Origin: Rhodopirellula islandica
Lineage (GTDB): Bacteria; Planctomycetota; Planctomycetia; Pirellulales; Pirellulaceae
Assembly (NCBI RefSeq): GCF_001027925.1
Contig: NZ_LECT01000007.1
Coordinates: forward strand, 124,001-188,000
Length of the DNA: 64,000 nucleotides
Direction of reading: 5' to 3'
Below the pieces are notes generated by a model. That model was not told the origin of the DNA. It searched no databases and saw only the letters and a program-made list of their open reading frames with translations. The position numbers and the translations under genes are program-made. This document shows, piece by piece, positions 17,123-60,490 of the stretch; the stretch's first letter is position 1; the number at the start of each line of letters is the position of its first letter.

Positions 17123-17150
17123 CACCGGGCGGCTTGCGCCGCGCCGCTAA
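17123..17150. repeat. Family G short GC-rich repeat
   Basis: CACCGGGCGGCTTGCGCCGC followed by GCCGCTAA, a near copy of 1631-1658. Here it leads straight into a family A palindrome. Confidence 0.5.
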
Positions 17151-17200
17151 GCAGGTACGCAAAAATGATTGGGTCTAAATTAGTGAGCCGTTTGGGCGTT
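17149..17200. repeat. Truncated family A palindrome arm
   Basis: AAGCAGGTACGC ... GTGAGCCGTTTGGGCGTT matches one arm of the complete family A element that starts at the next base. It looks like a partial tandem duplication or a nested insertion. Confidence 0.65.
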
Positions 17201-17326
17201 AAGCAGGTCGGCAGGAATGACCACGCACAACCATGTGAGCCGTTTGGGCGTTAGCCCCGGTTGCGCGTGAAAACCGTGGCTAACGCCAACGGCTCACATA
17301 CCCGATGACACCTGCCTACCTGCTTA
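17201..17326. repeat. Family A palindromic repeat (about 126 bp)
   Basis: Ends AAGCAGGTCGGCAGGAATGA and GCCTACCTGCTTA are inverted copies. The core GTGAGCCGTTTGGGCGTTAG / CTAACGCCAACGGCTCAC forms a long stem around GCGCGTGAAAACC. Near-identical copies lie at 43796-43921 and 54411-54536. It sits between the convergent DUF1570 and DUF1559 genes. Confidence 0.85.
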
Positions 17327-17360
17327 ACAGAGGAGGTTCTTCCCGGACGGTTCCTTTTCC

Positions 17361-18599
17361 TTAGAACTCGCCGTCGATGACTTCGCGAGACGCACGCGTG
17401 CCGAGTGATCCCCACAATCCGTAGGGGCTTTCGGATCCCGCGGGTGTGGCGCTGTTGGTTTGCCCTGAGAGGGCCTTGCAGTACACGCAAGCGACACGCG
17501 AGTTGCCGGCTTCAATCGAGTCCGTGATGAACTTGACTGCGCCATCGGACATCGCAACATGCACCCCGCCGACGTGATAGCTGCTCGGTGGAGCAATGCC
17601 ATAGGTGTCGGAGTGACCGACCAGGCACAGTTCCGAGTTGGGGCCGAGGATGGTGTTGAATTGGGACTGAAGCGTGTGAAAGTCGGCCCATCGCAATCCA
17701 CGTTGAGAGATTGGGGCATACACGTTCGCGGCGTCGGTCCAGAAGTTGGGACGCTCTGGGTCGATGAATCCAAGATCAAAGCAGCGTTTCGGATTGTTCG
17801 CGATTTGAAAGAAGCCGCCTTTTGCATTCGTGAATCCGATCGTTCGGTTGTCTCGGTCATTGAGTCCCGTTGCGATTTCGCCGACCGCGATGGTGTTGCT
17901 CAGTCCGTCGGTGAAATCGCGAAACCGCATCGCTTTGCGAGGTACGAAAGCGCCGCGAAGGCCACAGCGGGCTCGTTGAGTCGCCAGCGATTGGTCGTAC
18001 TCCCAGCGATTCGAACTGGAATTCCAGACCGTCACCCCGTGTTCGGCTTCGTAAAACCCGTCCCCCGAGCAAGCCGCATAATTGGTGCGGCCTAGTCCGG
18101 GCAGTCCATAACCTGGATCACTTGGGCATCGGTAGGTGGGGATCTCGGTCGCCCAGGGCGGATACTGGATCGTCCAAGGTCGCGGGCCAAAGGCGGGCCA
18201 GATGTCGCCATCGGCTTCCTGCAAGGGGTTGCTCACCATGGACCAGATGGATTGCTGTTCCACAAAGGGCAACAGGCCGACCAAGAAGGTCAATTCCATT
18301 CGTGTGAAGCCTGTTCCATCGTTGGCACTGCCGCGGGCCGCGGTGTTGTCGTTTTCGTCCGTGGGGCCGACGCCATGGATGGGCAGCTGGTTGAACGCGG
18401 CGTGGTAGTTGTGTAGCCCCAATCCAATCTGCTTCATGTTGTTGCCACAACTCATTCGCCGCGCCGCTTCGCGGGCGGATTGGACGGCTGGCAATAGCAA
18501 GGCGACCAAGATGCCGATGATCGCGATCACCACCAGCAACTCCACCAGCGTGAATGCGTGCGGCTGGTGTGGGCTGCGAAGCGAACGATTGAGATGCAT
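17361..18599 (-). CDS. DUF1559 protein with type IV prepilin-like N-terminus
   Basis: 412 aa from ATG 18599; the ORF extends 64 codons further but without conservation. The prepilin-type signature [20 protein letters not shown] (residues 16-35) gives a leader-peptidase site and one hydrophobic helix. [20 protein letters not shown] and LGLHNYHAAFNQLP follow, the standard DUF1559 opening. HVGGVHVAMSDGAVKFITDS marks the C-terminal domain. DUF1559 is greatly expanded in planctomycetes, with presumed pseudopilin-like or surface-fibre roles. The GspD/E/F-like genes at 44-50 kb could provide an assembly system. Confidence 0.9.
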   Translation of the reverse strand: MHLNRSLRSPHQPHAFTLVELLVVIAIIGILVALLLPAVQSAREAARRMSCGNNMKQIGLGLHNYHAAFNQLPIHGVGPTDENDNTAARGSANDGTGFTRMELTFLVGLLPFVEQQSIWSMVSNPLQEADGDIWPAFGPRPWTIQYPPWATEIPTYRCPSDPGYGLPGLGRTNYAACSGDGFYEAEHGVTVWNSSSNRWEYDQSLATQRARCGLRGAFVPRKAMRFRDFTDGLSNTIAVGEIATGLNDRDNRTIGFTNAKGGFFQIANNPKRCFDLGFIDPERPNFWTDAANVYAPISQRGLRWADFHTLQSQFNTILGPNSELCLVGHSDTYGIAPPSSYHVGGVHVAMSDGAVKFITDSIEAGNSRVACVYCKALSGQTNSATPAGSESPYGLWGSLGTRASREVIDGEF

Positions 18600-18894
18600 G
18601 ACGAATCCACCGTGAAGCGTGGGATGTGATGTCAATGCTTCCTTGCAAGTGCCGAAATGGTTGTACGCACTGCCCAAGTTGGGGGCAAGTAAAAATTTGC
18701 AGCCGTCCGGTGGATCCTCGACGACACACCGGTGCCTGAGCCTCTCGCGACGGTTGGCTGCTGTTCCCAGAGCGTTCTGTCTCAGTGCCACTCTGACTCG
18801 GTTTGGTCATCTAGTTGACTGTCATCTAGCTGACCGACCTCGAAGACGCGACAATGGGGGTTTCGCCCGTTACCGCCTCCACCGAGAGATTGTC

Positions 18895-19290
18895 ATGCGT
18901 TTGTTGTCAGGTTTAGGACTTTGTTTGGCTGTCGCCGCGATCATGCAGTTGTCAGCCACGGGAGCTGAAAAGGAAACGCCCAAAAAACTGCTGCGGCACG
19001 TCGTGATGTTTGGGTTCAAAGAAACCAGCTCGGAAGCAGAAGTGCAGGTCGTCGTGGACGCCTTTCGAAATTTGCCCAACGAGATTCCCGAGATCTCGGG
19101 CTTTGAGTTCGGAACGAACAACTCACCCGAAGGACTCAACGATGGTCTGACGCATTGCTTCCTCGTGACTTTCGAAAGCGAAGCCGACCGTGAAGCTTAT
19201 CTGCCTCACCCAGCCCACAAGGCCTTCGTGGAAGTCCTCAAGCCACACCTCGAAAAAGTGGTCGTGATCGACTACTGGGCCGATAAGTAG
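18895..19290 (+). CDS. Exported Dabb (stress-responsive A/B barrel) domain protein
   Basis: 131 aa from ATG 18895. Signal peptide at residues 1-22 (LLSGLGLCLAVAAIMQLSATGA), then a single Dabb domain starting LLRHVVMFGFKETSSEAEV and ending HPAHKAFVEVLKPHLEKVVVIDYW. These ferredoxin-like dimeric barrels have been tied to stress and to aromatic polyketide chemistry, but exported planctomycete forms have no assigned role. It is divergent from the DUF1559 gene with about 295 bases between starts. Confidence 0.85.
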   Translation: MRLLSGLGLCLAVAAIMQLSATGAEKETPKKLLRHVVMFGFKETSSEAEVQVVVDAFRNLPNEIPEISGFEFGTNNSPEGLNDGLTHCFLVTFESEADREAYLPHPAHKAFVEVLKPHLEKVVVIDYWADK

Positions 19291-19408
19291 TCCGGGTGAT
19301 GGCGCTCCGGATTGGTCGCTTCCGACTGGTCGATGAGCGGCCGCCAGCTCGAAATGGCGGATCGAAAGCTGCCCACAGGGCATCCCGCTCTGCTGGGCCT
19401 TGGTTCAT

Positions 19409-19452
19409 AAAAAGCCCGGCATTTGCGGTCTCAAACCGCTGCTGGGCTTTTT
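19409..19452 (+). terminator. Rho-independent terminator of the Dabb gene
   Basis: AAAAAGCCCGGCA pairs with TGCTGGGCTTTTT, with an inner GCGGT/ACCGC hairpin in the loop. The A and T tracts make it work in both directions. It ends the Dabb transcript and isolates the LysR-gltBD block. Confidence 0.85.
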
Positions 19453-19577
19453 CGTTGACGCTGGGAAAGCGGCGGCAGCAGCAGAACGCTTGACCAAATT
19501 TGCTTCCGTGGCTATCCTCCGTCATCAATCCGGCTGAAAGTGGCCGGGCGCATCATAAGGAAATTTAATACAGCAGG

Positions 19578-20555
19578 TTGTCGTTGCAGTTTCGTACGCT
19601 TGAATTGTTCTGTCGTGTCGCCGATCTCCGCAGTTTTTCGAAAGCTGCGGCTGATTGCGGTTTAACTCAAAGCGCGGTCAGTCAAGCCATCAGCGGGTTG
19701 GAAGAATCCGTTGGGGCCAGTCTGATCGATCGCTCCAGTCGGCCGTTGGGTTTGACGGAAGCGGGCGAGATTTACTTGTGTGGCGTCCGCGATGTGATTC
19801 GCCAGTACAATGAACTGGAACAACGGGTCCGCTTCCGGGGCGAACGCCTGACCGGCAGCGTGAACGTCGGTGCGATTTACTCTGTCGGGCTGAGCTACAT
19901 GCCCGAGGCCACCAAGGTCTTCGAGACTCAGCACCCCGACGTCAAAGTCCGAACGGAATTTGGCAGCAGCCAACGCGTCGTGCAGATGGTGCTCGACGGC
20001 GGTGTCGAATTTGGGCTGGTCAGTTTCCCTCGGACCACCAAGGCATTGGGAACGATCCCTTGGCAATCTGAACCGATGCGTCTGGTTTGTTCCGCCGACC
20101 ACCCTTTCGCAAAGCGAACGGAAGTCTCGGCATCGGAACTCAGCGGCATGGAAATGGTTGGTTTCGAACGCGGGTTGGTGCTCCGTCAGGCGATCGACCA
20201 ATGTCTGAAACGCGCCGGCATCTCGGTGGTCACTCAGATGGAATTTGACAACGCCGACTCAATGGTTCGTGCGATTCAGGCGAACCGTGGGTTGGGGATT
20301 GTCCCCGAGGCGGCGGTCCGCCGCGAAACGGCCAACGGAACCCTGCGGGTGGTCGCTTGCCCCGAAATTCAGATGGTCCGGCCGCTCGGAATCATCTTTC
20401 GTCGCAGCGGCAAACTCAGCCGTGCTGCGATTGAACTGGGATCGCTTCTCTTGGGCCGGGAAATGGAACCTGAACTGAGAACAAAGTCCGAAGCCGCCAA
20501 GGCGGACCGGAAGAAAAACCAAACCAAAGATCGGGCGGTCTCTGTCGTCGCATGA
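19578..20555 (+). CDS. LysR-family transcriptional regulator
   Basis: 325 aa. The N-terminal winged helix-turn-helix covers residues 4-65 (FCRVADLRSFSKAAADCGLTQS, then ISGLEESVGASLIDR), followed by a type 2 periplasmic-binding-like effector domain (about 92-290, GSVNVGAIYSVGLSYMPEAT). Start is TTG 19578 or TTG 19584; no ATG fits. The Lys/Arg-rich tail after residue 298 is unusual. It precedes gltB in the same direction by 67 bases, so it may regulate glutamate synthase as GltC does in Bacillus, although there the regulator is divergent. The effector is unknown. Confidence 0.88.
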   Translation: MSLQFRTLELFCRVADLRSFSKAAADCGLTQSAVSQAISGLEESVGASLIDRSSRPLGLTEAGEIYLCGVRDVIRQYNELEQRVRFRGERLTGSVNVGAIYSVGLSYMPEATKVFETQHPDVKVRTEFGSSQRVVQMVLDGGVEFGLVSFPRTTKALGTIPWQSEPMRLVCSADHPFAKRTEVSASELSGMEMVGFERGLVLRQAIDQCLKRAGISVVTQMEFDNADSMVRAIQANRGLGIVPEAAVRRETANGTLRVVACPEIQMVRPLGIIFRRSGKLSRAAIELGSLLLGREMEPELRTKSEAAKADRKKNQTKDRAVSVVA

Positions 20556-20622
20556 AGCACGACCCAGACTCCAACGCCCTTTGCCTGTCCACACATCCCC
20601 TCATCCCCAAGTTGTTTTATTT

Positions 20623-23600
20623 ATGACCAAGCAACCTTTGTATCACCTGCCACCGGCCCAAGGACTGTACAACCCTGAGCACGAAAAGGATGCGTGTGGC
20701 GTCGGATTCGTTGCCCATATCAAAGGGGCTCCCAGTCATCAAATCGTGATCGATGCCGACACGATTCTGCAAAACATGGATCACCGCGGAGCATGCGGTT
20801 GCGAACCGAACACCGGTGACGGATCGGGGATCATGTGTGGCTTGCCTCATAAGTTTCTGCAAAAGGTTGCCAAGGCTGATCTCGGTGTGGAACTGCCCGA
20901 AGAAGGAAAATTCGCCGCCGGATTGATCTTCTTGCCAACCGATGATGCGGAGCGGAAAACCTGCAAGGAAACCATCGCGCGTCTCATCGAAGAGACTGGG
21001 CAAAATTTGATCGGTTGGCGGGATGTGCCTCAAGAAACCGATGCCGCTGACGTCGGGCCAACCGCTCGTCAAAGCGAACCTCGCATTGAGCAGTTGTTCG
21101 TCGGTGCGGCGGATGGACTTTCCAACGAAGAGTTTGAACGTCAGCTCTACTTGATCCGCAAGCAAGCCAGTCACGAACTGCGCGGCGGCACCAAGATCGA
21201 ACAAGCGTTGATGTTCTACGTCTGTTCGTTGTCGACCAAGGTCATCATCTACAAGGGGATGCTCACGCCTGCCCAGGTGATGCCGTATTTCCCCGATTTG
21301 CGTGACGAGGATTTCGAAACGCACTTGGCGATGGTCCACAGCCGTTTCTCGACGAACACGTTCCCCAGTTGGGACCGTGCTCAGCCCCTGCGTTTCATGA
21401 GCCACAACGGCGAAATCAACACGCTCCGCGGCAACGCCAACTGGATGCGTGCTCGCGAAGGCACGGCCGCCAGTGAAATTTACGGCGATGAACTGAAGAA
21501 GTTGTTCCCCGTTGTCGAGCCTCACTTGAGCGACTCGGGTACCTTCGACAATGTGCTTGAGTTCTTGTTGATGAACGGCCGCACGCTGCAAGAAGCCATC
21601 ATGATGATGGTGCCCGAAGCTTGGCAAAAGCACGAAACCATGCCCGAAGAAAAGCGTGCTTTCTATGAGTACTTCAGCTGCCTGATGGAGCCTTGGGACG
21701 GCCCCGCGTCGATTGCCTTCACCGACGGGAAGTGCATCGGTGCGACGCTGGACCGAAACGGTTTGCGTCCCAGTCGTTACTACATCACGCACGACGATCG
21801 CGTGATCATGGCCAGCGAAGTGGGCGTGTTGCCGGTTGACCCCTCGATCGTTCGTGAAAAAGGTCGCCTGCAGCCGGGCAAGATGTTCTTGATTGACTTC
21901 GAAGCGGGACGCCTGATCCCCGATGAAGAACTCAAGGCCGACTTCGCTCGCAAAAAGCCTTATGGCAAATGGCTCAAGCAACAACGCATTCGGTTGGCAG
22001 ACCTGCACCCTGAAGCCGAGGGGCACGGGTTCGACGGCGAGACGTTGCTGCCACGCATGCAAGCGTTTGGCTACACCGCCGAAACGATGAACTTCATGCT
22101 CCGTCCGTTGGTGGAGCAACTGCGTGACCCCGTCGGTTCGATGGGCAATGACTCGGCGCTGGCCTGTTTGTCCGACAAACCGCGGATGATCTACGATTAC
22201 TTCAAGCAATTGTTCGCCCAGGTGACCAACCCCGCGATCGATTCGATTCGCGAAGAAGTCATCATGTCGCTGGAATGCTACATCGGCCCCGAGCAGAACT
22301 TGCTGGCAGCGACGCCGGAGCACTGTCACCGGTTGTTGATCGATCATCCGATTCTGACCAACGAAGAAGTCGCGGCTCTCAAGCACGTGGACCACGAGCG
22401 TTGGCATAGCCGCGTGATTGACACCACGTTTGATCGCGCCGACGGCAAAGCTGGTCTGACACAGACGCTCGACCGAATTTGTGCCGAAGCTGAAGCCGCT
22501 GTCGACGAAGGTTTGCAGATCATCGTCCTGAGCGATCGCAACGTGTCGCACGATCGTGTGCCTGTCAGCATGCTGTTGGCAACCGGTGCGGTTCACCATC
22601 ACTTGGTCGCCAAGGCCAAGCGAACTCGAGTGGGCATCGCCGTTGAAACCGGTGAAGCTCGCGAGGTGCACCATCACTGCTTGTTGATTGGCTACGGTGC
22701 TGATGCGATCAACCCGTACCTGGCGTTCGAAGCCCTGTGGCAAGCCCACCGCGACGGATTGATGTCCTCGACATTGGACGACGACAAAATCGTCGCCGCG
22801 TATCGCAAGGCTGTCGCCAAGGGCATGCTGAAAGTCATGGCCAAGATGGGCATCAGCACCCTGCAGAGTTACAAGGGGGCTCAGATTTTCGAAGCCTTGG
22901 GCATCCGTGATGAAGTCATCAAACGCTGCTTCGTCGGCACCGCCAGCCGTATTCAAGGGGTGACCTTCGACGTCATCGCAGAAGAAACGCTGCGTCGTCA
23001 CAAACTGGGCTTCCCGGACAAGAATTCGGATCGTCTGACTCAATTGCCAAACCTAGGTGAATTCCACTGGCGCGCCGAAGGTGAAAAGCACGCTTGGAGT
23101 CCTCAGGCAATCAGCACCTTGCAAAATGCCGCTCGCAACAACAACGAAGACGCGTACTGGAAGTTCTCGCACGAAATCAACGAGGACAACCGAACCCGCT
23201 GCACGTTGCGTGGTTTGTTGGACTTCAAAGAAGGCGTCGGCGGCCCCGCGTTGCCTCTGGATGAAGTCCAATCCGCTCAGGACATCGTCAAGCGGTTCTG
23301 CACCGGTGCGATGAGCCTCGGCAGCATCAGTGCGGAATCGCACGAGACGCTCGCCATCGCGATGAACCGCTTGGGTGGCAAGAGCAACACGGGCGAAGGT
23401 GGCGAAGACCCCAAACGCTTCCAACCGCTTCCCAACGGCGACACCAAGCGATCTGCCATCAAGCAAATTGCATCGGGACGCTTTGGTGTCACGATTGAAT
23501 ACTTGACCAACGCGGACGAGTTGCAAATCAAGGTTTCGCAAGGTGCCAAGCCTGGCGAAGGTGGTGAGTTGCCCGGCAAAAAGGTCGACAACTACATCGC

Positions 23601-25188: not shown

Positions 25189-25332
25189 GAGTGACGGCAA
25201 ACATCGCTTGATTGAGAAGCGAGTGAAAACGATCGGGCGAAGCAATTCGCTTTGCCCGGCACGCGTGGCCATCGCCGCGAAAACCCCATCCCACATCCAC
25301 CGAACACATCACCCCATTTTGAGGACTCTGCC

Positions 25333-26835: not shown

Positions 26836-26873
26836 GCCTAGTGGTCCGTCAAAGTTAAAAGTGAGGGTTGATC

Positions 26874-26939
26874 GTAGTGGACGAGGCCACGAGTCCTTGG
26901 ATTTGACGCCGGTTCAGGACTCGTGGCCTCGTCCACTAC
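26874..26939. repeat. Family D hairpin repeat (24-bp perfect stem)
   Basis: GTAGTGGACGAGGCCACGAG plus TCCT pairs perfectly with its inverse at 26916-26939 around a 19-base loop containing ATTTGACGCC. Related copies are at 37205-37260 and 58412-58478, with conserved flanks (AGTGAGGGTTGATC before; CTAA..CAAGTC..TGACAGACCA after). Without a T tract it is not a classical terminator, but it sits just after gltD. Confidence 0.8.
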
Positions 26940-26984
26940 CCTAATAACAAGTCCTGACAGACCAGTAGGCCATTTGGCTTTAAT

Positions 26985-27345
26985 TGTTCCGCCGGGCAGG
27001 TTGCATTCGTGATGGCGTTCCACAAGTCGGTCCATTGGAAGTCGTTCGCGTGGTGCTGCTCGACGACAGTGGCCGGGCACGCAAACATTTGGGGACAAAT
27101 GTTCTACTCTTCCAGGTTTGACTTGTTCTGAGAGTTCGTTTTGGGCGGGGAGTGTGACCGAACCTTTGCGTCCAACTGTTGGGGCGGGCAGATCGCACTT
27201 GTGATGGCTTGTTGCGAGTCAGTCCATTTCAAATCGTTCGCGTGATGTTGCTCGACGACGGTAGCCGGGCACGCAAACATTTGGGGACAAAGGTTCTACT
27301 CTTCTAGGTTTGACTTGTTGCGAGAGTTCGTTTTGGGGGCGGAGC
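26985..27345. repeat. Tandem duplication, 192-bp period
   Basis: Two diverged units offset by 192 bases share stretches such as CGGGCACGCAAACATTTGGG and GGTTTGACTTGTT. Both units can be read on the minus strand as a short similar peptide (SPNVCVPG followed by an Arg-rich run), but the unit reading frames are interrupted. It most likely represents a duplicated relic of a coding or repeat sequence. Together with the family D hairpin it fills the gltD to NagB gap. Confidence 0.65.
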
Positions 27346-27349
27346 GGGG

Positions 27350-29278: not shown

Positions 29279-29337
29279 TTTCTCAGGCACGCCACAGCAC
29301 TGAAAGCAGGTGCGGCGAACGAAGTTTGGGAGGGGCT

Positions 29338-29465
29338 AAGCAGGTCGGCAGGAGTCTTTCGGCGTTTGAAATGTCTTGGCAAGCGTGGTTGCTTCCACGT
29401 ACAACCGGGGCGAACGCCCAAACGGCTCACATGGTTCTGCTCGATCATTCCTGCCGCCCTGCTTA
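29338..29465. repeat. Family B palindromic repeat (reverse orientation)
   Basis: AAGCAGGTCGGCAGGAGTCT at the left and ATTCCTGCCGCCCTGCTTA at the right are inverted ends. The inside includes CACGTACAACCGGGGCGAAC and CCCAAACGGCTCACATGG. It separates the NagB fusion and ROK genes, which are transcribed in the same direction. Confidence 0.75.
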
Positions 29466-30912: not shown

Positions 30913-30999
30913 AAGCAGGTCGGCAGGACCACATTCAACCGTGACTGAGGCCCAGACGGGTCACATGGTGATGTCTGATGGTTCCTGCCCTTCTGCCTA
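30913..30999. repeat. Diverged, shortened family B repeat
   Basis: AAGCAGGTCGGCAGGACCAC at the left, an internal CCCAGACGGGTCACATGGTGA and TTCCTGCCCTTCTGCCTA at the right. The central segment of family B is missing. It lies just upstream of the hydrolase gene. Confidence 0.6.
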
Positions 31000-31030
31000 C
31001 CCATCGCCCCGCCATTCGTTGGAGATTTTG

Positions 31031-35476: not shown

Positions 35477-35529
35477 AAGCAGGTCGGCAGGATGGAACCG
35501 TCAGAACCATGTGAGCCGTTTGGCGTTCG
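35477..35529. repeat. Family A/B left arm only
   Basis: AAGCAGGTCGGCAGGATGGA then CCATGTGAGCCGTTTGGCGT, cut off where a family C copy begins. The junction suggests one repeat inserted into or replaced part of another. Confidence 0.6.
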
Positions 35530-35705
35530 CCTGGTCTGCTGAATGTTTGGTGTTGTGACGCACGGTGTTTCCGGGGGGGTGCTGCTACGCAGCAACCCCC
35601 CGGGCTACCATCTGACTTCCCTACCGGGATGGAGAAAGACAGAAGCCGGAAGAAGAATTGCATCCGCTATTCGAGCGCCAAAGGCAAACGCTTCGCAGTC
35701 CAGCG
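35530..35705. repeat. Family C repeat, shortened copy
   Basis: Shares GCTGAATGTTTGG at the left with the copy at 1213, and GCTACCATCTGACTTCCCTA then AGACAGAAGCCGGAAGAA at the right. A central hairpin GGGGGGGTGCTGCTACGCAG.. remains, but the GCCGTCGGTAAGCGATAGCG section is missing. Confidence 0.7.
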
Positions 35706-37368: not shown

Positions 37369-37476
37369 GAGTCGGCATTGGAACTGTTTTGGTTGGCGTT
37401 GTTGCTCCCACGTACAACCGGGGCGAAGGCCCAAACGGCTCACATGGTGATGCCGATCATTTCTGCCGACCTGCTT
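37369..37476. repeat. Family B repeat lacking its left end (reverse orientation)
   Basis: AGTCGGCATTGGAACTGTTT, CCCACGTACAACCGGGGCGA and TTCTGCCGACCTGCTT match family B on the opposite strand. The missing terminus abuts the family E sequence. Confidence 0.65.
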
Positions 37477-42221: not shown

Positions 42222-42222
42222 T

Positions 42223-43795: not shown

Positions 43796-43921
43796 AAGCA
43801 GGTCGGCAGGAATGATCAAGCACAACCATGTGAGCCGTTTGGGCGTTAGCCCCGGTTGTGCGTGAAAACCGTGGCTAACGCCAACGGCTCACATACCCGA
43901 TAACACCTGCGGACCTGCTTA
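43796..43921. repeat. Family A palindromic repeat, overlapping the gspF stop
   Basis: AAGCAGGTCGGCAGGAATGA to CACCTGCGGACCTGCTTA, nearly identical to 17201-17326 and 54411-54536. Its last bases TTA (43919-43921) are the TAA stop codon of the GspF-like gene on the minus strand. Confidence 0.88.
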
Positions 43922-45133
43922 GAGGCTGGTGCTGCTCTTGAGGACAGGCACGAGCAATGCCATCACGACACCGAGAACCAGAATTGCCATCACCAGCAAC
44001 ATGATCGGCTCGAGCAATCGCACGAACAAGTCCAGACGCCGGAACGTTCGCTTTTCCAGGGAGTCTGCGATTTCAGGCAGCACTCGGTCCAACGAGTTGC
44101 TCTCTTCACCCACGCTGATCATCTCCACCACCGAAATCGGAAAGTATCCCGACTGGCGGAGTGGTTTCGCGAGGCTTTCACCGCTGCGAATGTTTTCACT
44201 GGCGTCCGCGATCGATCGACTGAGCAAGCGATTGCCGGTTGCGGTCCGACTGATATCCAACGATTTCAGAATCGGCACGCCGTTGGCCAGCAAGGTTCCC
44301 AACACCCGGCAGAACCGAGCGACGGAAAGATTCATGAGAATGTCACCCAGGACGGGGACCTTCAGTTTGATCTTGTCAAACAAGTCTTGCCCGCGATCGG
44401 TCTGCAGTTGCTGGCGAATAAAGATGATCAATCCCACTGCCACCACAATCAGGATCCATCCGTATCCCTGGAGGAAGTTGCTGAAGCCCAGCAAGGCCTC
44501 TGTCATGGCAGGCATCTCGCCCTTTTGCCGCAATCGATCAAACAGCATGTCGAACTTGGGCACGAAGAAAACCAGCAAGGCCGAGATCACAACACTTCCG
44601 ATCGTGAACAAGAACACAGGGTACGCCATCGCGCTGACCGTGCGTCCCTTGAGGTCTTCTTGCAGTTCGGTGAAAACGCCAACGCGGTCCAAGGCGTCTT
44701 CTAGAAAACCACCTTCGGTCCCGGCACGCACCATGTTGACGGCCATGTCGCTGAACACGCCGGGATAGCGAGCCATGGTGTCACCGATGGGTTCGCCGTC
44801 CTCGACCCGACCTCGAATTTCGGCCAAGACTTCCCCGAGGACCGGCGTGCTGGATTGCTCACCAAGAATCGTGAGCGACCGAATCATTGGCACGCCACTT
44901 CGCAGCAACGACGCCATTTGGCCGTAGAAGGTGGCCATGATTTGACCTTTGACCTTCTTGCGTTTGGTTCCAAAGATCGCAAACGCGGAACCGGAGGTTT
45001 GTTCCGTGATTTTGGTTGGGAACAAATCACGTCCAGTCAGTTGCGACGTCGCTTCACGCTGCGACCCGGCCTCGAGCGTTCCTTGGACGCTCTTTCCAGT
45101 CATGTCTCGGGCGGTGTATTGAAACGTTGGCAT
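43919..45133 (-). CDS. gspF: Type II secretion / type IV pilus inner-membrane protein (GspF/PilC)
   Basis: 404 aa from ATG 45133 (MPTFQYTARDMTGKSVQGTL is the classic start); the ORF opens 26 codons earlier without conservation. Two GspF domains: about 60-185 (FYGQMASLLRSGVPMIRSL) and 265-390 (FCRVLGTLLANGVPILKSLD), with membrane helices near 170-195, 220-240 and 370-395. It is the polytopic platform that couples the ATPase to pilin assembly. Stop TAA is shared with a family A repeat. The gene is third in the D-E-F run, 105 bases after gspE. Confidence 0.93.
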   Translation of the reverse strand: MPTFQYTARDMTGKSVQGTLEAGSQREATSQLTGRDLFPTKITEQTSGSAFAIFGTKRKKVKGQIMATFYGQMASLLRSGVPMIRSLTILGEQSSTPVLGEVLAEIRGRVEDGEPIGDTMARYPGVFSDMAVNMVRAGTEGGFLEDALDRVGVFTELQEDLKGRTVSAMAYPVFLFTIGSVVISALLVFFVPKFDMLFDRLRQKGEMPAMTEALLGFSNFLQGYGWILIVVAVGLIIFIRQQLQTDRGQDLFDKIKLKVPVLGDILMNLSVARFCRVLGTLLANGVPILKSLDISRTATGNRLLSRSIADASENIRSGESLAKPLRQSGYFPISVVEMISVGEESNSLDRVLPEIADSLEKRTFRRLDLFVRLLEPIMLLVMAILVLGVVMALLVPVLKSSTSL

Positions 45134-45238
45134 AGTGACAGAGCGGCGGGAAGCAGGTGGGCGTGATGGAAGGCGATGCGCGTTTTGGTGTCGGGCGAGA
45201 AGCCCAGACAACCTGGATGACGGTCAGCAAGTCGCGGG

Positions 45239-49896: not shown

Positions 49897-50218
49897 TTCG
49901 ATAGATAAGATTTAGGATCGAGCTGGACGAAGCGGAAATCGTTTGCCTGGACTCGGGTGTCAGGATAGTTGCCCGAAAAGCAACGGCACGAGTAAATGGT
50001 CCCGTTCCGTCATGAACTAACCCCTCCCGGCCACAAAAGTTCCGACGGGGAGCGTTCCTGCTCAAGCAAATCGCCGGATTGTGCCAATCATTCCGCCTCA
50101 GGTCCCCCCACCGGCTGGCATCTGATGTCAGATTGGGTTTGCCGCCTCTCTAAACCTGCTATGCTGGCAACTCGCCTCTGACGGCCCACCATCAACCGAT
50201 CCAGCACCACTTAGAAGC
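49897..50218. other. Divergent intergenic region with promoters
   Basis: Between the secretin-like gene and map. TTTGCC (50138-50143), a 16-base spacer and TATGCT (50160-50165) form a plausible promoter for map. The partial palindrome ATCTGATGTCAGAT at about 50120-50133 could be an operator. The secretin side shows no clear promoter. Confidence 0.45.
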
Positions 50219-51016: not shown

Positions 51017-51237
51017 GCATTCGAGGTTGTCCCTTGCACACCAGGCTGTTGGTCGAGTGTGTTTCGCAGATTGAGCGATCAGCCGACGGGCGGTAGCCCA
51101 CGGTTACCGAAGACGAACCGGACGCGATCGCGTTCCGGCTGACTCAATCAACAGCCTGTCACGCTTCGAGTTGTGATGTTGGTCACGGGAGTGTCGACAC
51201 AGCGAATCGAAGCTGGGAACCGAGTGCGAGCGGTGTT

Positions 51238-52185: not shown

Positions 52186-52370
52186 CGATTCTCAAGCAGC
52201 TCCGAATTCAATGCGGTTGACCAAGGGGGACTTACAATGCGTCCCCACTTTAGTCCACCGAGGTCATCGCCCAAAGAGGACCGAGCCCCGTTGAGCCACG
52301 ATTTAGGCTGACTTTCACGACATTTTTCAAGCCGAGGTCATCCATCGATGCTGGGCGATGCTCCACGGCC

Positions 52371-53660: not shown

Positions 53661-53713
53661 CTCATTCCCTTCGGACTTCTCAATCGAACCGTTGGCTGGT
53701 AGCGTTTCGCGTC

Positions 53714-54277
53714 ATGAACATCGACGCAGTGAAACCTCAGCATCTCTATTTGACCGGCTACCGCGGGTGCGGCAAAAGTACGCTTGCGAAACTTTTAGCG
53801 CAGCGGTTGTCTTTGCCGGTCGTCGACTTGGATGATGTGATCGAATCGACGGCAGGGAAATCGATCGCGGAAATCTTCGCCGCTGAAACCGAGTCCGGTT
53901 TTCGCGACCGCGAAGAAGCCGCGTTGGTGGAAGTCGCCCAGCGGCCAACGCATGTGATCGCTCTCGGTGGTGGCACAATCCTTCGCCAGGCCAACCGGAA
54001 TCTGATCGCCAATTCGGGCTGGTGCGTTTGGCTGGACGCTGAACCTGAAATTCTGATGGCTCGATTGGCTGGCGATGAAACCACGGCCGATCGACGTCCC
54101 TCGCTGACGGATCAATCGGTCTTCGATGAAGTCAAAACGGTGATGACCCACCGCGAACCGCTCTACCGTGAATCGGCGGACCTACGAATCAACACCAGTC
54201 ATCAAACGATGGACGACATTGTCACCGAAGTTTTGAAGGCTTGCCCGCCCAGCATCGGAGAAGTCAAACCCAGCTAG
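53714..54277 (+). CDS. aroK: Shikimate kinase
   Basis: 187 aa from ATG 53714; the ORF extends 25 codons upstream into the neighbouring gene's start region. P-loop LTGYRGCGKSTLAKLL (residues 12-27), shikimate-binding VVDLDDVIE and FRDREEAAL, and IALGGGTI (Walker B region) are all present, as is the lid Arg in TTADRRPSLTD. It phosphorylates shikimate in the chorismate pathway. It is an isolated aro gene, with repeats right after it. Confidence 0.93.
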   Translation: MNIDAVKPQHLYLTGYRGCGKSTLAKLLAQRLSLPVVDLDDVIESTAGKSIAEIFAAETESGFRDREEAALVEVAQRPTHVIALGGGTILRQANRNLIANSGWCVWLDAEPEILMARLAGDETTADRRPSLTDQSVFDEVKTVMTHREPLYRESADLRINTSHQTMDDIVTEVLKACPPSIGEVKPS

Positions 54278-54338
54278 ACTTCGACCGGAGGGGCTCGGAA
54301 GCCTTTTTATACCCCACATCTCGAAACACCAAAGATTA

Positions 54339-54409
54339 GTGTCCGATCAGAGTGGATTAGTGTTCCGCCAGAGCGGCCAAGGGAACACTAATCTCCGCTG
54401 ATCGAACAC
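54339..54409. repeat. Strong 71-bp palindrome
   Basis: Two nested stems: GTGTCCGATCAG (54339-54350) with CTGATCGAACAC (54398-54409), one mismatch pair, and GATTAGTGTTCC with GGAACACTAATC (54382-54393). The loop is GCCAGAGCGGCCAAG. No T tract follows. I do not see another copy in this window. It lies 61 bases past the aroK stop. Confidence 0.75.
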
Positions 54410-54410
54410 G

Positions 54411-54536
54411 AAGCAGGTCGGCAGGAATGATCAAGCACAATCATGTGAGCCGTTTGGGCGTTAGCCCCGGTTGTGCGTGAAAACCGTGGCTAACGCCAAC
54501 GGCTCACATACCCGATGACACCTGCGTACCTGCTTA
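54411..54536. repeat. Family A palindromic repeat
   Basis: Third near-identical copy (AAGCAGGTCGGCAGGAATGA to CACCTGCGTACCTGCTTA), placed one base after the 71-bp palindrome and 8 bases before a family C fragment, making a repeat cluster between aroK and the OsmC gene. Confidence 0.88.
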
Positions 54537-54544
54537 AAGAGTAT

Positions 54545-54638
54545 TGTCGCTTGCCCAAGTTTTCATCCCGATAGGGATGCAAGATGGTAGCCGTCGGTAA
54601 GCGATAGCGCCACCGATGGACATGCAACCCCCACGCCA
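54545..54638. repeat. Family C repeat, left arm only
   Basis: TTTTCATCCCGATAGGGATG, ATGGTAGCCGTCGGTAAGCG and ATAGCGCCACCGATGGACAT match the left half of the 1213-1553 copy. The right half is missing. Confidence 0.75.
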
Positions 54639-54796
54639 GAGCTCAACGCGAACGTGTAGGCGTCTTCTCCAGCCATCGGATGGTCGACATAGCCATTCCC
54701 CATGTCGACGAAGCCGTAGCCACGCAGGGGACACATGTCTTCGATTTCACAGAGCACGTCGGTGGTTCCGGCTGTCGTCCCCTTTTCGAAGTCCAC
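54563..54796 (-). pseudogene. Possible gene remnant ending inside a family C repeat
   Basis: A 77-codon frame reading MDFEKGTTAGTTDVLCEIED and then CPLRGYGFVDMGNGYVDHPM looks protein-like up to about residue 52, after which it runs into family C sequence and stops. An in-frame stop lies just upstream. It may be the middle of a gene cut short by the repeat. No family recognised; weak evidence. Confidence 0.25.
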
Positions 54797-54936
54797 GCTG
54801 ACTCAACCACCCGTCCGTCGTACAACCACCGTGGCAGGCTCACCGGCACCGTGCGGTGTCAAACGCATTGACCAACGTGTGCTCATCACGTGATGATTCT
54901 CTGAAACCTCTTTTCACTCCAGCCGGAAGTTCACCG

Positions 54937-55509
54937 ATGGGCACAGACGAATCCGCCACGCCGATTGTTCGCAAAGTGGAAGAACTCTCCAATCCCGACG
55001 AGCATGGATCCAGTCTCGCGCCGGTTCAGAAACGCGAAGTCGTGTTGCGGTTGGAGGCAGAATCACTGGACAACATGAGGAAGCGGGCAACGGTTCGAGT
55101 CGATCAACCTCAAGGCAGCACGTTCGAAATCATTTGCGATGAAGGCCCATACTTGGGCGGGGACGATTCCGCACCACCGCCACTGGCCTACTACAGCGCC
55201 AGCATCGCGTTTTGCCTGCTGACTCAGCTCTCTCGCTACGCCTCCATCAAGAAACTCAAAATCTCCCGGTTGAAGCTCTCGCAGGAAACCCGGTTCTCGA
55301 TGGAAGGATCGGTTCTCAAAGGCACGCTGACTGGCCGAGGCGTCGAAGTGATCACTCACTTGGAGATCGAATCGGAGGAATCCGAAGAAACCATTCGGAA
55401 GATGATTGAAGTCGGCGAGAACAGTTGCTTCATCCACCAGTCGATCATGCATCCCGTGCCATCGACGATTCAAGCGAAGTTCAATGGCCAGAGCCTTGGT
55501 CCTGCCTGA
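54937..55509 (+). CDS. OsmC-family protein
   Basis: 190 aa from ATG 54937, with GGAAG 8 bases upstream; a GTG at 54856 is an alternative. The OsmC fold is suggested by GSTFEIICDEGPYLGGDDSA then PPLAYYSASIAFCLLTQLSR, where the Cys on the central helix (about 91) is the peroxidatic-type Cys. ITHLEIESEESEETIRKMIE and a second Cys in GENSCFIHQSI (about 167) complete the redox pair. Such proteins reduce organic hydroperoxides using thiols; the subgroup here is uncertain. Confidence 0.82.
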   Translation: MGTDESATPIVRKVEELSNPDEHGSSLAPVQKREVVLRLEAESLDNMRKRATVRVDQPQGSTFEIICDEGPYLGGDDSAPPPLAYYSASIAFCLLTQLSRYASIKKLKISRLKLSQETRFSMEGSVLKGTLTGRGVEVITHLEIESEESEETIRKMIEVGENSCFIHQSIMHPVPSTIQAKFNGQSLGPA

Positions 55510-55629
55510 ACTTTGCAAGCTCACAAAGAGATTGTCATTGCTTCGGCAGAATGTCGCGTGATGCCAATCACTTTTGCGTGACAGAAGCGTTCCCGTTCAA
55601 TCAGCTCGACGGGCGTCTTCGAGTGTGTG

Positions 55630-55727
55630 AGACCTTTGGCGTTCGCCAAGGCTCCCATGTACAAACGGGGCAAACGCCCAAACAGCTTGCATGCTTGCTC
55701 CCAATCAATCCTGCGGCCCCGCTTAGT
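55630..55727. repeat. Degenerate family B repeat (reverse orientation)
   Basis: GGCTCCCATGTACAAACGGG, GCAAACGCCCAAACAGCTTG and AATCCTGCGGCCCCGCTTA are diverged family B text; the left end is missing. It ends 24 bases before the sulfatase start. Confidence 0.55.
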
Positions 55728-55750
55728 TGTATGTTCGAGGGGGGAGTGAT

Positions 55751-58231
55751 ATGAATAGGCTCTCAACCGAATGCAGTCGCCCGCATTCGATCCCCGTTGT
55801 TTCCTGGTTCTGCTGGATTGCTTCCATGAAGTTCGATCAAAAACAATCACCTGTCATTCGGAACGTGATCCAGTGCCTGGTGTTGGCGGGAGTCGTGCTT
55901 CATGCACAGGCAACCGAGGCACAAGAGTCTGACCGAGAAGTGCCAGTCAACCGACGTGTGCTGCCCATCGCGGCGCCATGGCAACCACCGATCAAAACGT
56001 TGGACGCCCGCGATGCCACAGCTCCGCCAGTGTTCAAGGTCGAAGCGCCCCAGGATGCGCCCAATGTGGTGGTCATCATGATTGATGACCTTGGTTTTGG
56101 TGGCACTAGCGCGTTCGGCGGCGTCACCCCAACGCCCACCTTCGATCGACTCGCAAAGAATGGGTTGCGTTACAACCACTTTCATTCAACAGCGTTGTGC
56201 TCGCCCACACGTCAAGCTTTGTTGACCGGTCGGAATCACCACAGCGTGAACATGGGGTCGATCACGGAAATTGCGACCTCCTTCCCAGGCCAAACAGGCA
56301 AGCTCCCAGACAGCTGCGCCAAGTTGCCTGAAATCCTCCGACTCAACGGTTACAGCACGGCCCACTTCGGCAAGTGTCACGAAGTCGCTGTTTGGGAGAT
56401 CAGTCCCAGCGGTCCGCTGACTCGTTGGCCAACGCTCTCGGGATTCGACAAGTTCTACGGCTTCCTGGGGGGAGAAACCAACCAGTGGGCACCTGCGATC
56501 TACGACGGCATCACCCCCGTGGACAACCCGGCGAAGGGCGACCCCGATTATCACTTCATGAACGACATGACGACGCAGGCGATCAACTGGATTCGAGCCC
56601 AGCAGTCGCTGACCCCGGAAAAACCGTTCTTCACCTACTTTGTCCCCGGTGCAACGCATGCACCTCACCATGTTCCCGAATCGTTTATCAAAAAGCACGA
56701 AGGCAAGTTCGACGCTGGCTGGGATGTCATTCGGAAGCAGATTTTCGACAACCAAAAACGCTTGGGAGTGATTCCGAAAGACGCGGTGCTGGCCGACAAG
56801 CCCGAGGACATCAAAGACTGGGACGATCTTTCGCCGAAAGAGCGAAAGCTGTTCTCGCGTCAGGCGGAGGTCTTTGCAGCATTCTTGGACATGGCGGACT
56901 TTGAAATCGGCCGACTCATCGATGCGATTGAAGAACTCGGCGAACTCGACAACACCATGATCGTCTTCATTGCCGGTGACAACGGCACCAGTGCGGAAGG
57001 CGGCATGAACGGCATGTACAACGAGATGACGTACTTCAATGGAGTCGAGGAAACGGTCGACGACATGCTCCAGCACTACGACGATTGGGGCAGCGCCAGC
57101 ACCTACCCTCACATGGCAGCCGGCTGGGCCGTGTGCTTTGATTCGCCCTTCACCTGGACCAAACAAGTCGCGTCCAACTATGGCGGAACGCGTCAGGGAA
57201 CCGTGATCCACTGGCCGGCAGGGATCAAAGCGAAGAACGGTTTGCGTCAGCAGTGGCACCATGTGATTGACATTGCCCCCACGGTCTTGGAAGCCGCTGG
57301 CCTGCCCCAGCCGCGAATCGTCAATGGCGTCGGGCAACGTCCGATGGAAGGCGTCAGCATGCTGTATTCCTTCGACGACGCCCAAGCCGCTGACCGGCAT
57401 TTGGTGCAGTACTTCGAAATCATGGGCAATCGAGGCGTGTACTACGATGGTTGGTTCGCCGGCACCGTTCACATGTACCCCTGGGCTCCACCAAGGAACA
57501 AACTCCTCGACGATGTTTGGGAGCTGTATCATGTGGCCGAAGATTTCAGCATGGCAAACAACCTGGCAGCGAAGCATCCTGAAAAGCTGAAAGAGCTGCA
57601 GGAAGTGTTTTTGTCCGAAGCGGTGAAATACAAGGTGTTGCCGATCGACGATCGACGCCAATTGCGACTCAACGCCAAGCTGGCCGGACGGCCAACCTTG
57701 ATGGGAGATCGCACCTCGCTGACCGTCTATGAAGGGCTGGGATTTTTGCCTGAAAACGATTTCATCGACACCAAGAACCGTTCCTTCGAAATCGTCGCGG
57801 AAATCGAATCACAGGGCAAAGCAACCAACGGGGTGATCGTCAGCCAAGGCGGTCGTTTTGGTGGATGGAGTTTGTACTTGAAAGAAGGCAAGCCGGTTTA
57901 CACGTACAACTACCTCGGTTTGGAAAGCTATTCGGTGACATCGAAGGACGTTCTGCCTGTCGGCAAATCAACGCTCCAACTCGAATTCGCGTATGACGGT
58001 CAATCGGCCGATGGCCAACCCAAACTTGGTGCGGGAGGCACGGCCACGCTGAAGGTCAACGGCCAACCGGTTGGTTCAGGCAAGGTCGAGAAAACCCAGT
58101 TCGCGATTTGGTCGGCAGATGAAACCGCCAATGTCGGCCTCGATCGCGAGACCTCCGTGTCGCCTGACTACACCGAGGAATCAAGCAAATTCACGGGCAA
58201 GATCGACAAGGTCACCTTGACCGTGAAGTAG
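55751..58231 (+). CDS. Type I arylsulfatase, exported
   Basis: 826 aa from ATG 55751, which has a strong GGGGGGAG ribosome site. The region around residues 32-58 (IRNVIQCLVLAGVVLHAQAT) is a signal or anchor. The sulfatase core starts VVVIMIDDLGFGGTSAFGG (metal Asp pair). The formylglycine motif is CSPTRQALLTGR (about residue 150), where Cys must be converted by an FGE enzyme. FIAGDNGTSAEGG gives later metal ligands. A C-terminal beta-sandwich region (about 680-826) may bind substrate. Planctomycetes use such enzymes on sulfated marine polysaccharides. No FGE is in the window. Confidence 0.95.
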   Translation: MNRLSTECSRPHSIPVVSWFCWIASMKFDQKQSPVIRNVIQCLVLAGVVLHAQATEAQESDREVPVNRRVLPIAAPWQPPIKTLDARDATAPPVFKVEAPQDAPNVVVIMIDDLGFGGTSAFGGVTPTPTFDRLAKNGLRYNHFHSTALCSPTRQALLTGRNHHSVNMGSITEIATSFPGQTGKLPDSCAKLPEILRLNGYSTAHFGKCHEVAVWEISPSGPLTRWPTLSGFDKFYGFLGGETNQWAPAIYDGITPVDNPAKGDPDYHFMNDMTTQAINWIRAQQSLTPEKPFFTYFVPGATHAPHHVPESFIKKHEGKFDAGWDVIRKQIFDNQKRLGVIPKDAVLADKPEDIKDWDDLSPKERKLFSRQAEVFAAFLDMADFEIGRLIDAIEELGELDNTMIVFIAGDNGTSAEGGMNGMYNEMTYFNGVEETVDDMLQHYDDWGSASTYPHMAAGWAVCFDSPFTWTKQVASNYGGTRQGTVIHWPAGIKAKNGLRQQWHHVIDIAPTVLEAAGLPQPRIVNGVGQRPMEGVSMLYSFDDAQAADRHLVQYFEIMGNRGVYYDGWFAGTVHMYPWAPPRNKLLDDVWELYHVAEDFSMANNLAAKHPEKLKELQEVFLSEAVKYKVLPIDDRRQLRLNAKLAGRPTLMGDRTSLTVYEGLGFLPENDFIDTKNRSFEIVAEIESQGKATNGVIVSQGGRFGGWSLYLKEGKPVYTYNYLGLESYSVTSKDVLPVGKSTLQLEFAYDGQSADGQPKLGAGGTATLKVNGQPVGSGKVEKTQFAIWSADETANVGLDRETSVSPDYTEESSKFTGKIDKVTLTVK

Positions 58232-58289
58232 CTGGCAAGCAAGCACGTTCACCAACAGTGTCACAGGCTCCTGGTGGTCTGTCACAGCG

Positions 58290-58396
58290 AAGCAGGTCGG
58301 TAGGAATGATCGGGCATCATCATGTGAGTTGTACGTGGGAGCAACGACGCTTACCGAAACAGTCCAAATGCCGAAAGACTCCTGCCGACCTGCCTG
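58290..58396. repeat. Family B palindromic repeat
   Basis: AAGCAGGTCGGTAGGAATGA to CTCCTGCCGACCTGCCT, with a shortened centre (GTGAGTTGTACGTGGGAGCA). It lies 59 bases after the sulfatase stop and abuts a family D copy. Confidence 0.82.
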
Positions 58397-58411
58397 AAAG
58401 TGAGGGTTGAT

Positions 58412-58478
58412 CGTCGTGGATGAGGCGGCGAGTCCTTGGATTTGACGCCAGTTCAGGACTCGTCGCCTCGTCCACTAC
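58412..58478. repeat. Family D hairpin repeat
   Basis: GTCGTGGATGAGGCGGCGAG plus TCCT pairs with AGGACTCGTCGCCTCGTCCA plus CTAC. Its downstream flank ...CAAGTCATGACAGACCA matches the flank at 26949-26964 and contains the ATG at 58493, which is therefore repeat-derived and not a natural start of the next gene. Confidence 0.8.
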
Positions 58479-58546
58479 CCTAAGATCAAGTCATGACAGA
58501 CCACGAGCCTGGGGTGGATCTCCGCCCCGAATTCATCCGAAAAACC

Positions 58547-60304
58547 ATGCCTGAATCATTCGTCTTCGCTGCACGTCCAACCGACTCAGGCAGCTTCAAG
58601 CGTCGTGACTTCCTTGAGTTCGCTGGTCTGGTGGCCGCATCCTCTTGCCTGCCAAAAATCGCTGCCGCGGCTGATGCCGCCGGGGCAACCCCCGCAGACG
58701 AAATGGCGGTGGATGTCGTCATCGTTGGCGGTGGTCTTGGCGGTTGTGCTGCGGCGTTGGCAGCCACCCGGATGGGCAAGCGTGTGCTGATGACTGAGCC
58801 CACCGATTGGATTGGTGGACAACTCAGTCAACAAGGTGTGCCGCCCGATGAACACAGCCACATCGAAACACATGGTTGCACCGCCAGCTACCGAGAATTT
58901 CGCGAGAAGGTTCGCGACCATTACAGAAGACACTCCCCGCTCACCGAGGCCGCCCGACAGAACGCTCGCTTGAATCCTGGCAATGGAAGTGTCTCGCGGC
59001 TTTGTCATGAGCCTCGTGTTGCCGTCGCGGTCCTGGATGCCATGCTGGCGCCTGCAGTCAGCGCAGGCCGACTGACCGTGCTGCTCGATACCGAACCGAT
59101 CCAAGCTGATGTCGATGGCGATCGCATTCGATCGCTCACCTTCCGCAACAGAGCGGGGACGGCGGTGACCGTGACGGCACCGATGTTCGTCGACGCCAGC
59201 GAACAAGGGGACGTGCTGCCACTGACCAACACCGAATATGTCACCGGCTTCGAATCTCGAGACCAAACCGGGGAACCACATGCCCCTGACCAAGCCGCCC
59301 CGAAAAACATCCAATCGTTCACGTGGTGCTTCGCGATCGATCACCTGGACGGAGAAGATCACACCATCGATCGGCCCCAACAATACGGATTCTGGAAAGA
59401 GCACACACCTGACTTAACGCCACCCTGGCCCGGCAAGTTGCTGTCGCTTCAGTATTCCAAGCCGAACACGCACAAGCCCCATGACCTCGCCTTTGTCCCG
59501 CCAAGCAACGGACAGCCACCAGCGAAAACACAAGCCCTGAACTTGTGGCTGTATCGCCGCATCCTGGACCCAGCCAACTTTGTCCCTGGCACCTACCCAA
59601 GCGGTGTGACCATCGTCAATTGGCCGCAGAATGATTACATGCTGGGGGATTTGATGACTGGCGATGAACAGGAAATCGCCAAGCATTTGGAAGGATCCCG
59701 GCAACTGAGTTTGTCGTTGCTGTACTGGCTGCAGACCGAAGCACCACGTCCTGACGGCGGAACGGGATGGAAGGGACTCCGCTTACGGAAGGACATCATG
59801 GGCACGGAGGATGGCCTGGCCAAGTATCCTTACATCCGTGAGTCGCGAAGAATCGAAGCCGAGTTCACCATTCTCGAACAACACATTTCACGTGCCGAGC
59901 GTGAGACGCTGGTGAAGAGCCCAACGGACAAAGTTCGGGCGGCATCCTTTCACGATTCGATCGGGGTTGGCTACTACCATCTCGATCTGCACCCCAGCAC
60001 CGGTGGCGACAACTACATCGACTTCGCCAGTGTTCCGTTTCAAATTCCCCTGGGCGCATTGATCCCCAAGCGAATGAAGAACTTGATCGCTGGGTGCAAG
60101 AACATTGGCACCACTCATCTCAGCAACGGTTGCTACCGCCTGCACCCAGTCGAATGGAGCATCGGCGAAGCCGCGGGTGCCTTGGCCGCTCATTGTCTCG
60201 ATCAACACGATCGACCAAGCGGAGTTCGGAACGATCCCCAGTCACTGGCCGAGTTCCAACGCCTCCTCACACGGCAAGGTTTTGAACTGGCGTGGCCGTC
60301 CTGA
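58547..60304 (+). CDS. Tat-exported FAD-dependent oxidoreductase
   Basis: 585 aa from ATG 58547 (MPESFVFAARP); the 58493 ATG lies in a family D repeat. Twin-arginine signal KRRDFLEFAGLVAASSCLP at about residues 17-35. FAD-binding DVVIVGGGLGGCAAALAATR follows, then TEPTDWIGGQLSQQGVPPDE. TWCFAIDHLDG and FQIPLGALIPKRMKNLIAGC mark the FAD_oxidored (PF12831-type) family, with CKNIGTTHLSNGCYRLHP near the C-terminus. The substrate is unknown; neighbours suggest a sugar or sugar derivative. Confidence 0.85.
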   Translation: MPESFVFAARPTDSGSFKRRDFLEFAGLVAASSCLPKIAAAADAAGATPADEMAVDVVIVGGGLGGCAAALAATRMGKRVLMTEPTDWIGGQLSQQGVPPDEHSHIETHGCTASYREFREKVRDHYRRHSPLTEAARQNARLNPGNGSVSRLCHEPRVAVAVLDAMLAPAVSAGRLTVLLDTEPIQADVDGDRIRSLTFRNRAGTAVTVTAPMFVDASEQGDVLPLTNTEYVTGFESRDQTGEPHAPDQAAPKNIQSFTWCFAIDHLDGEDHTIDRPQQYGFWKEHTPDLTPPWPGKLLSLQYSKPNTHKPHDLAFVPPSNGQPPAKTQALNLWLYRRILDPANFVPGTYPSGVTIVNWPQNDYMLGDLMTGDEQEIAKHLEGSRQLSLSLLYWLQTEAPRPDGGTGWKGLRLRKDIMGTEDGLAKYPYIRESRRIEAEFTILEQHISRAERETLVKSPTDKVRAASFHDSIGVGYYHLDLHPSTGGDNYIDFASVPFQIPLGALIPKRMKNLIAGCKNIGTTHLSNGCYRLHPVEWSIGEAAGALAAHCLDQHDRPSGVRNDPQSLAEFQRLLTRQGFELAWPS

Positions 60305-60361
60305 CATCCAACGCCAACCCGATCAGGCCAACACGAAAACAGTGACGCGGAGTTCACTCCG

Positions 60362-60490
60362 AAGCAGGTCGGCAGGAACGATCAGGCAGAACCCGGTGAG
60401 CCATTTGGGCGTTGGCCCCGGTTGCACATGGGAGCAACAACGCTCCCCCAAACAGTTCAAATGCCGAAAGACTCCTGCCGACCTGCTTAA
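60362..60490. repeat. Family B palindromic repeat
   Basis: AAGCAGGTCGGCAGGAACGA to CTCCTGCCGACCTGCTTA, with GTGAGCCATTTGGGCGTTGG and CCGGTTGCACATGGGAGCAA inside. The most complete family B copy in forward orientation. It lies 58 bases after the oxidoreductase stop. Confidence 0.85.

Follow-up and report, generated by a model that had tools for sequence, protein, structure and literature searches.

Of the small mobile elements described in bacteria, the closest known case to those reported here is the pneumococcal RUP, which available accounts present as a 107-bp intergenic element that targets TA, has ends resembling those of a co-resident IS630 element, is over-represented between convergent genes and is proposed to be moved by IS630-Spn1 (PMC2229807, PMC3049150). 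IS630-family and Tc1-mariner elements, such as IS630 of Shigella sonnei and ISY100, are described as inserting at and duplicating a TA dinucleotide through cut-and-paste by a single transposase (PMC2170065). Further small elements include ERIC/IRU (127 bp) and Correia/NEMIS, which are mobile, with 5'-TA-3' termini and long stem-loops (PMC2229807); MITEPsy1 of Pseudomonas syringae, a 100-bp miniature inverted-repeat transposable element (MITE) listed as 'IS5?', with CTAG or YTAA targets and a 4-bp duplication (PMC3189936); and the Nezha MITE of cyanobacteria, for which an ISNpu3-like insertion sequence (IS) partner has been proposed (PMC3049150). Here we describe a family of palindromic elements, around 125 bp in length, from Rhodopirellula islandica, studied in a 64-kb stretch of contig C7 (the window) and across the genome of 7.43 Mb in 55 contigs. 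These are very probably non-autonomous MITEs of the IS630/Tc1-mariner type, most likely moved in trans by an IS630-family transposase whose gene lies outside them in the genome, although the exact donor IS is unproven.

Like RUP, the R. islandica MITEs are intergenic, TA-targeted and biased towards convergent genes, and have IS630-like left ends; they differ in having an unrelated host, a length of about 125 bp, two versions of the right half and a preference for CTAG. The resemblance is one of description, as it is for ERIC/IRU and Correia/NEMIS, which occur in other hosts with similar size, termini and stem-loops, and for Nezha, another MITE with a proposed IS partner. The TA duplication is common to the IS630 and Tc1-mariner elements, and the candidate partner matches the NCBIfam IS630 model, but the R. 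islandica elements carry no gene. CTAG use is shared with MITEPsy1, whereas the duplication is of TA rather than 4 bp. Repetitive extragenic palindromes (REPs) and bacterial interspersed mosaic elements (BIMEs), spread by REP-associated tyrosine transposases (RAYTs), are also short intergenic palindromes; by contrast, the elements described here duplicate TA, have IS630-type left ends and showed no association with the RAYT loci examined.

The mode of insertion could be read from the closest relative seen (G012, 91% identical over the first aligned block), which has clean empty sites for three R. islandica copies, at C7:153338 (window 29338), C17:183594 and C17:101080. In each, G012 has a single TA where R. 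islandica has TA-element-TA: at C17:101080, AGGTGC-TA-GGCG corresponds to AGGTGC-TA[element]TA-GGCG, and at C17:183594 the adjacent bases differ between the two genomes. All three fit a 2-bp duplication of TA, and a 4-bp duplication of CTAG does not fit. A prior reading of the window from its letters alone (the sequence-only reading) had suggested looking for target-site duplications, and its description of the repeats as 'MITE-type' can thus be narrowed to the IS630/Tc1-mariner type, duplicating TA, often within CTAG. The G012 array at position 4225479 and the neighbourhoods of window 30913 and 58290 were rejected as empty sites because they were not clean, and several other pairs of sites were repeat-driven or unclear and were left unused. 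At C7 2080, 11365, 104909, 161371 and 179601, and at C17:142555, an element or fragment occupies the same place in R. islandica and G012; hence some insertions predate the split between the species.

Profile searches extended this to 680 kb of R. islandica (one uninterrupted 400-kb run, and fourteen stretches of 20 kb picked for the known copies in them), 540 kb of G012 and 240 kb of a further congener, G003, the last likewise chosen around copies. These yielded 70 elements or fragments in R. islandica, 26 of them within the contiguous 400 kb, 35 in G012 and 28 in G003. Both ends could be placed in 76 of the 133; TA is present on both sides of 41 and on at least one side of 67, the preceding base being A in 71 and the following base T in 68. 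Target preference was measured on 33 R. islandica copies of one of the two versions, family A, comprising 26 of the 30 loci L009-L038 (the other four had no match over the full 125 bp) and seven copies from the stretches examined. Twenty-three of these have TA on both sides, and in 13 the target is CTAG, a context that accounts for 3.6% of all TA sites in the DNA sampled (p=1e-13, binomial test). A CTAG preference is also reported for IS630 itself, to judge by the title of a 1991 paper by Tenzen and Ohtsubo.

A candidate partner is present in the same genome, which has two DDE_3 transposase loci. The one on contig C44 lies inside a 1191-bp element that starts AAGCACGTCTGCAGGAGTCATTGGGCACAAC (also given as AAGCACGTCTGCAGG), ends CATGCCGACGTGCTT, has the flanks CCT/AGG and is inserted at CTAG; the second locus has no ends like these. 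The G012 copy of this IS, to which the R. islandica copy is 94% identical, has an open frame of 341 aa from an ATG. Its product scores 203 bits against the NCBIfam model transpos_IS630 (cut-off 100), matches Pfam DDE_3, and has a likely catalytic triad, picked by motif, of D177, D256 and either E289 or E294, giving a spacing of 32 or 37 residues. A search of PDB sequences with it returned nothing at E ≤ 0.01. Over 30 bp, the left end of the IS agrees with the left end of the second MITE version, family B, at 24 positions in R. islandica and 25 in G012, and with that of family A at 23 and 22 respectively; the other pairs of ends agree at 14-23. As the best non-element position on either strand of 400 kb reached 21/30, the left ends stand out from the background and the right ends, when set against right ends, do not.

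Several observations weigh against this interpretation. TA is missing from one or both sides of 35 of the 76 placed copies, and a candidate empty site at C7:3206 is too diverged to be read. The C44 transposase frame has one in-frame stop in R. islandica, and the triad spacing in G012 departs from the DD34E usual in the IS630 family. Right ends compared with right ends agree at only 18-21 of 30 positions in the two genomes, not above the background maximum, and the termini of the IS and the MITEs are not identical, differing as AAGCAC against AAGCAG and elsewhere, with at most 13 of 14 terminal bases shared. Nor do the two coincide across the genus: G002, G003 and G004 have MITEs and no related transposase at E ≤ 0.001, while G009 and G011 have related transposase genes and no match to the MITE pattern.

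The mismatch of the ends raises the prospect that the donor was instead an IS630 relative that had the AAGCAGG ends exactly and has since disappeared from these genomes; we regard this as a serious possibility, if not the one we would back over the C44-type IS. Exact AAGCAGGTCGGCAGG ends were found on none of the related IS loci whose ends were inspected, the closer ones having AAGCACGT-like ends of the AAGCAC type, and an element in G115, with a transposase 40% identical, having the ends AAGCAGGTGCTCAAA and AAGCAGGTGTTCAAA, of AAGCAGGTGYTCAAA type. Furthermore, a related transposase is present in just nine of 199 family genomes at E ≤ 1e-60, and the three MITE-bearing relatives without one are in line with a lost donor. 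However, the C44-type left ends share sub-terminal sequence with the MITEs, and the right end of the G012 IS matches the left end of the MITE at 13 of 14 terminal bases. It is also familiar from other MITEs that a transposase can act on ends that have diverged. The case for IS630-type MITEs is itself unaffected by the inexact sharing of ends, as the evidence from TA is independent of it.

Under the IS630-type interpretation, a transposase of this family would recognise the MITE ends in trans, excise the element and paste it at a TA, often that of a CTAG target. The enzyme would have come from the 1.2-kb IS630 element of C44, the frame of which is open in G012, or from a lost close cousin with exact ends. 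The copies that survive would then be mostly those in the least damaging positions, between genes and particularly between convergent ones.

Ten sites had been listed in the window by the sequence-only reading, as all using the same ends. The left end, AAGCAGGTCGGCAGG, was scored when exact or with one mismatch and the right end with 0-3 mismatches: the former is exact at 17201, 29338, 30913, 35477, 43796, 54411 and 60362 and has one mismatch at 58290, and the latter occurs at 17311, 29450, 37462, 43906, 54521, 55710, 58381 and 60474. Both are therefore found at six of the ten sites (17201, 29338, 43796, 54411, 58290 and 60362), whereas 30913 and 35477 are without a right end and 37369 and 55630 without a left end at this cut-off, so that the statement was too strong. 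The division by centre is real, with family A at 17201, 43796 and 54411, B at 29338 and 60362, and shortened B at 37369 and 58290: the consensus sequences have their left ~75 bp in common and differ in the right half. In A, the right arm looks like the left arm inverted and slightly shortened; in B, it appears to have diverged. Complete copies start AGCAGG and end CCTGCT, with terminal inverted repeats, and are too short for a transposase gene; measured between these motifs, most A copies are 123 bp (36/42) and most B copies 125 bp (23/34). The three A copies in the window, noted as almost identical, are 93-97% alike. No Y1_Tnp or DDE_3 match was found in the window, these being the two families searched for there, in agreement with the absence of any transposase in view. 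The copies and fragments are as follows.

17149..17200, plus strand: half of an older related element, directly adjoining the copy at 17202
17202..17324, plus strand: complete family A MITE, with TA flanks at 17200-17201 and 17325-17326
29339..29463, minus strand: complete family B MITE, with TA on both sides and a precise empty site in G012
30913..30996, minus strand: B-type fragment with a single end, from the end and profile searches
35477..35538, plus strand: half element with a single end, from the end and profile searches
37371..37476, minus strand: shortened family B copy with one end missing; G012 also has an element at this place
43797..43919, plus strand: complete family A MITE, lying at the stop codon of gene 43919-45211 on the minus strand
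54412..54534, plus strand: complete family A MITE, fused to another repeat at 54298-54412
55601..55724, minus strand: decayed A-like copy; G012 also has an element at this place
58291..58394, plus strand: family B copy of 104 bp with an internal deletion, from the profile search
60363..60487, plus strand: complete family B MITE, with both ends exact

Other repeats accompany some of these copies. The one fused to the A copy at 54412 is a separate palindromic repeat of about 112 bp (54298-54412); the composite recurs in the R. islandica genome, twice on C16 and also on C35 and C17, and repeats of this type are listed many times without A in G002, G003 and G004. Another palindromic repeat, of about 107 bp, is present at 58397-58503, directly adjoining the B copy at 58291, and at 26858-26964, the two being 92% alike. 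A unit of about 180 bp forms two neighbouring copies, 82% alike, at 26973-27344.

The family is not confined to this region, as the core end GCAGGTCGGCAGG has 170 exact matches in the R. islandica genome and its reversed pattern none, so the repetition is not due to chance. When a single A copy was used as the query, 40 of 332 candidates were scored, giving at least 40 near-complete copies of 94-100% identity. A longer left-end pattern, allowing up to two mismatches, was used to scan 13 genomes of the genus and 186 others of the family: there were 182 matches in R. islandica, 149 in G012, 29 in G003, 17 in G002, 15 in G004 and 17, of variant sequence, in G001, with none in the remaining seven of the 13 (G005-G011). 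Beyond the genus, 10 of the 186 genomes have 1-3 matches each. Reversed-pattern controls gave none, except for one match in each of three genomes, and loci L137 and L151-L156 entered no count. Related ends, TAAGCAGGTAGGCAGG and TAAGCAGGTCGACAGG, were also seen at L163 and L164, loci in two genomes from a different genus in the same family; at L163 two ends face each other about 128 bp apart, and at L164 one end was seen. Judging from these ends, similar MITEs may exist outside the genus.

The suggestion that the family was recently active is supported by the similarity of the copies. Mean identity among A copies is 94.5% in R. islandica (n=33) and 91.1% in G012 (n=16), compared with 90.7% between the two genomes, and the majority base differs at seven positions. 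The nearest neighbour belongs to the same genome for 41.6 of the 49 copies, with ties shared, a value reached in none of 2000 label shuffles (mean 27.0, maximum 38.1). As copies are nearest to those of their own species beyond any shuffle, the sequences point to separate bursts after the species split, in addition to some older copies. One G012 locus, L099 (G012:C1:4225479-4226267), contains a run of four consecutive elements, three of them A and the other B; its A copies recur at a spacing of 212 bp, and the spacer between them is itself repeated, which suggests a tandem duplication.

Genes were called with a home-made codon-usage gene caller, by which 80.7% of the sampled R. islandica DNA is coding. 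Coding overlap is no more than 20% in 68 of the 70 elements, the other two having 21% and 96%; copies are thus located between predicted genes, in both orientations, as first described. For 63 non-coding elements a gene was called on each side: 28 have convergent neighbours, 30 tandem and 5 divergent, compared with 55, 132 and 64 respectively of all gaps over 130 bp, a background that includes the element-holding gaps (convergent against divergent, p=6e-5). The same bias in pneumococcal RUP and IS elements is read, in the available text of that report, as tolerated insertion downstream of genes (PMC3049150).

The sequence-only reading had also entertained two other identities for these repeats. 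That they are REP or BIME elements spread by a RAYT, a Y1 tyrosine transposase, might be proposed from their appearance as short intergenic palindromes and from the eleven Y1_Tnp matches in the genome (e.g. L039-L046), one of which, L040, has an element nearby. This is one in eight RAYT loci examined, about what chance would give, as some 1.7 are expected from the density on C7; a single end match with three mismatches at L046 was not counted. REP elements moved by RAYTs are not known to make a target-site duplication, whereas these insertions duplicate TA at precise empty sites and their left ends match an IS630 element, so that we give this origin almost no credence. The other identity would be a structured RNA, conserved as a small RNA, riboswitch or terminator and repeated only incidentally, which seems only slightly less improbable. 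Stable folding, at -68.5 to -77.0 kcal/mol, is predicted on both strands for the three A copies of the window, the elements between convergent genes are where terminators lie, and variation is somewhat lower in paired columns (5.2%) than in unpaired columns (7.6%). However, an Rfam scan of the window gave one match, to a tRNA, and none within the elements; insertions are precise and largely lineage-specific; the convergent bias is also reported for RUP and IS elements; and changes in the stem mostly break pairs, the 1702 pair cells scored over 37 distinct sequences of family A including 134 that are broken, 25 with a one-sided change and seven with a two-sided one. There is little sign that the A palindrome is kept as an RNA, and the stem sequences appear to lend little support to the hairpin being maintained as one, although a putative local effect on the 3' end of a neighbouring transcript is possible.

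Some copies coincide exactly with the ends of genes. A predicted gene terminates in the codon formed by the two flanking bases together with the one that follows them at 12 of 40 copies in R. islandica, 5 of 24 in G012 and 2 of 12 in G003, the stop codon so supplied by the element being nearly always TAA. The gene at 43919-45211 is one example: in G012, without the element, it ends ...SSTSL followed by TAG, and in R. islandica the same residues are followed by a TAA supplied by the copy at 43797. On either strand the duplicated TA is followed by the A that begins the element, so an insertion into the TA of a TAG or TAA stop codon would rebuild it as TAA. The R. islandica rate of 30% exceeds the 8.3% for all TA sites (p=9e-5) and the 14.3% for YTAR sites (p=0.02), but is not clearly above the 18.3% for CTAG-matched sites that are non-coding or at stops (Fisher p=0.13), and a special enrichment at stop codons was rejected. 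The simplest reading is CTAG targeting combined with the loss of harmful insertions. An unlikely extension is that the element ends are built so that insertion repairs the target; together with the CTAG preference, TAA rebuilding would then make gene ends a landing niche, and copies would have come to serve as the working 3' ends of many genes, contributing both stop codon and hairpin.

No description of MITE or IS630 elements from Rhodopirellula was found in the open-access literature searched, ISfinder being outside the search, and the available text of a tandem-satellite paper, found via the intergenic repeats of R. baltica, contains no such palindromic elements (PMC6749651). The family is hence apparently undescribed, provisionally so because of this scope, though the kind of element is well known. 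A recently active MITE family can now be named, with around 180 left-end matches in one planctomycete genome and a plausible partner transposase, and neither RNA nor REP is a suitable annotation for these palindromes of R. islandica. The stop codons supplied by the elements illustrate in a simple way how a transposon can land at the ends of genes, and the copies themselves could be used as strain markers.

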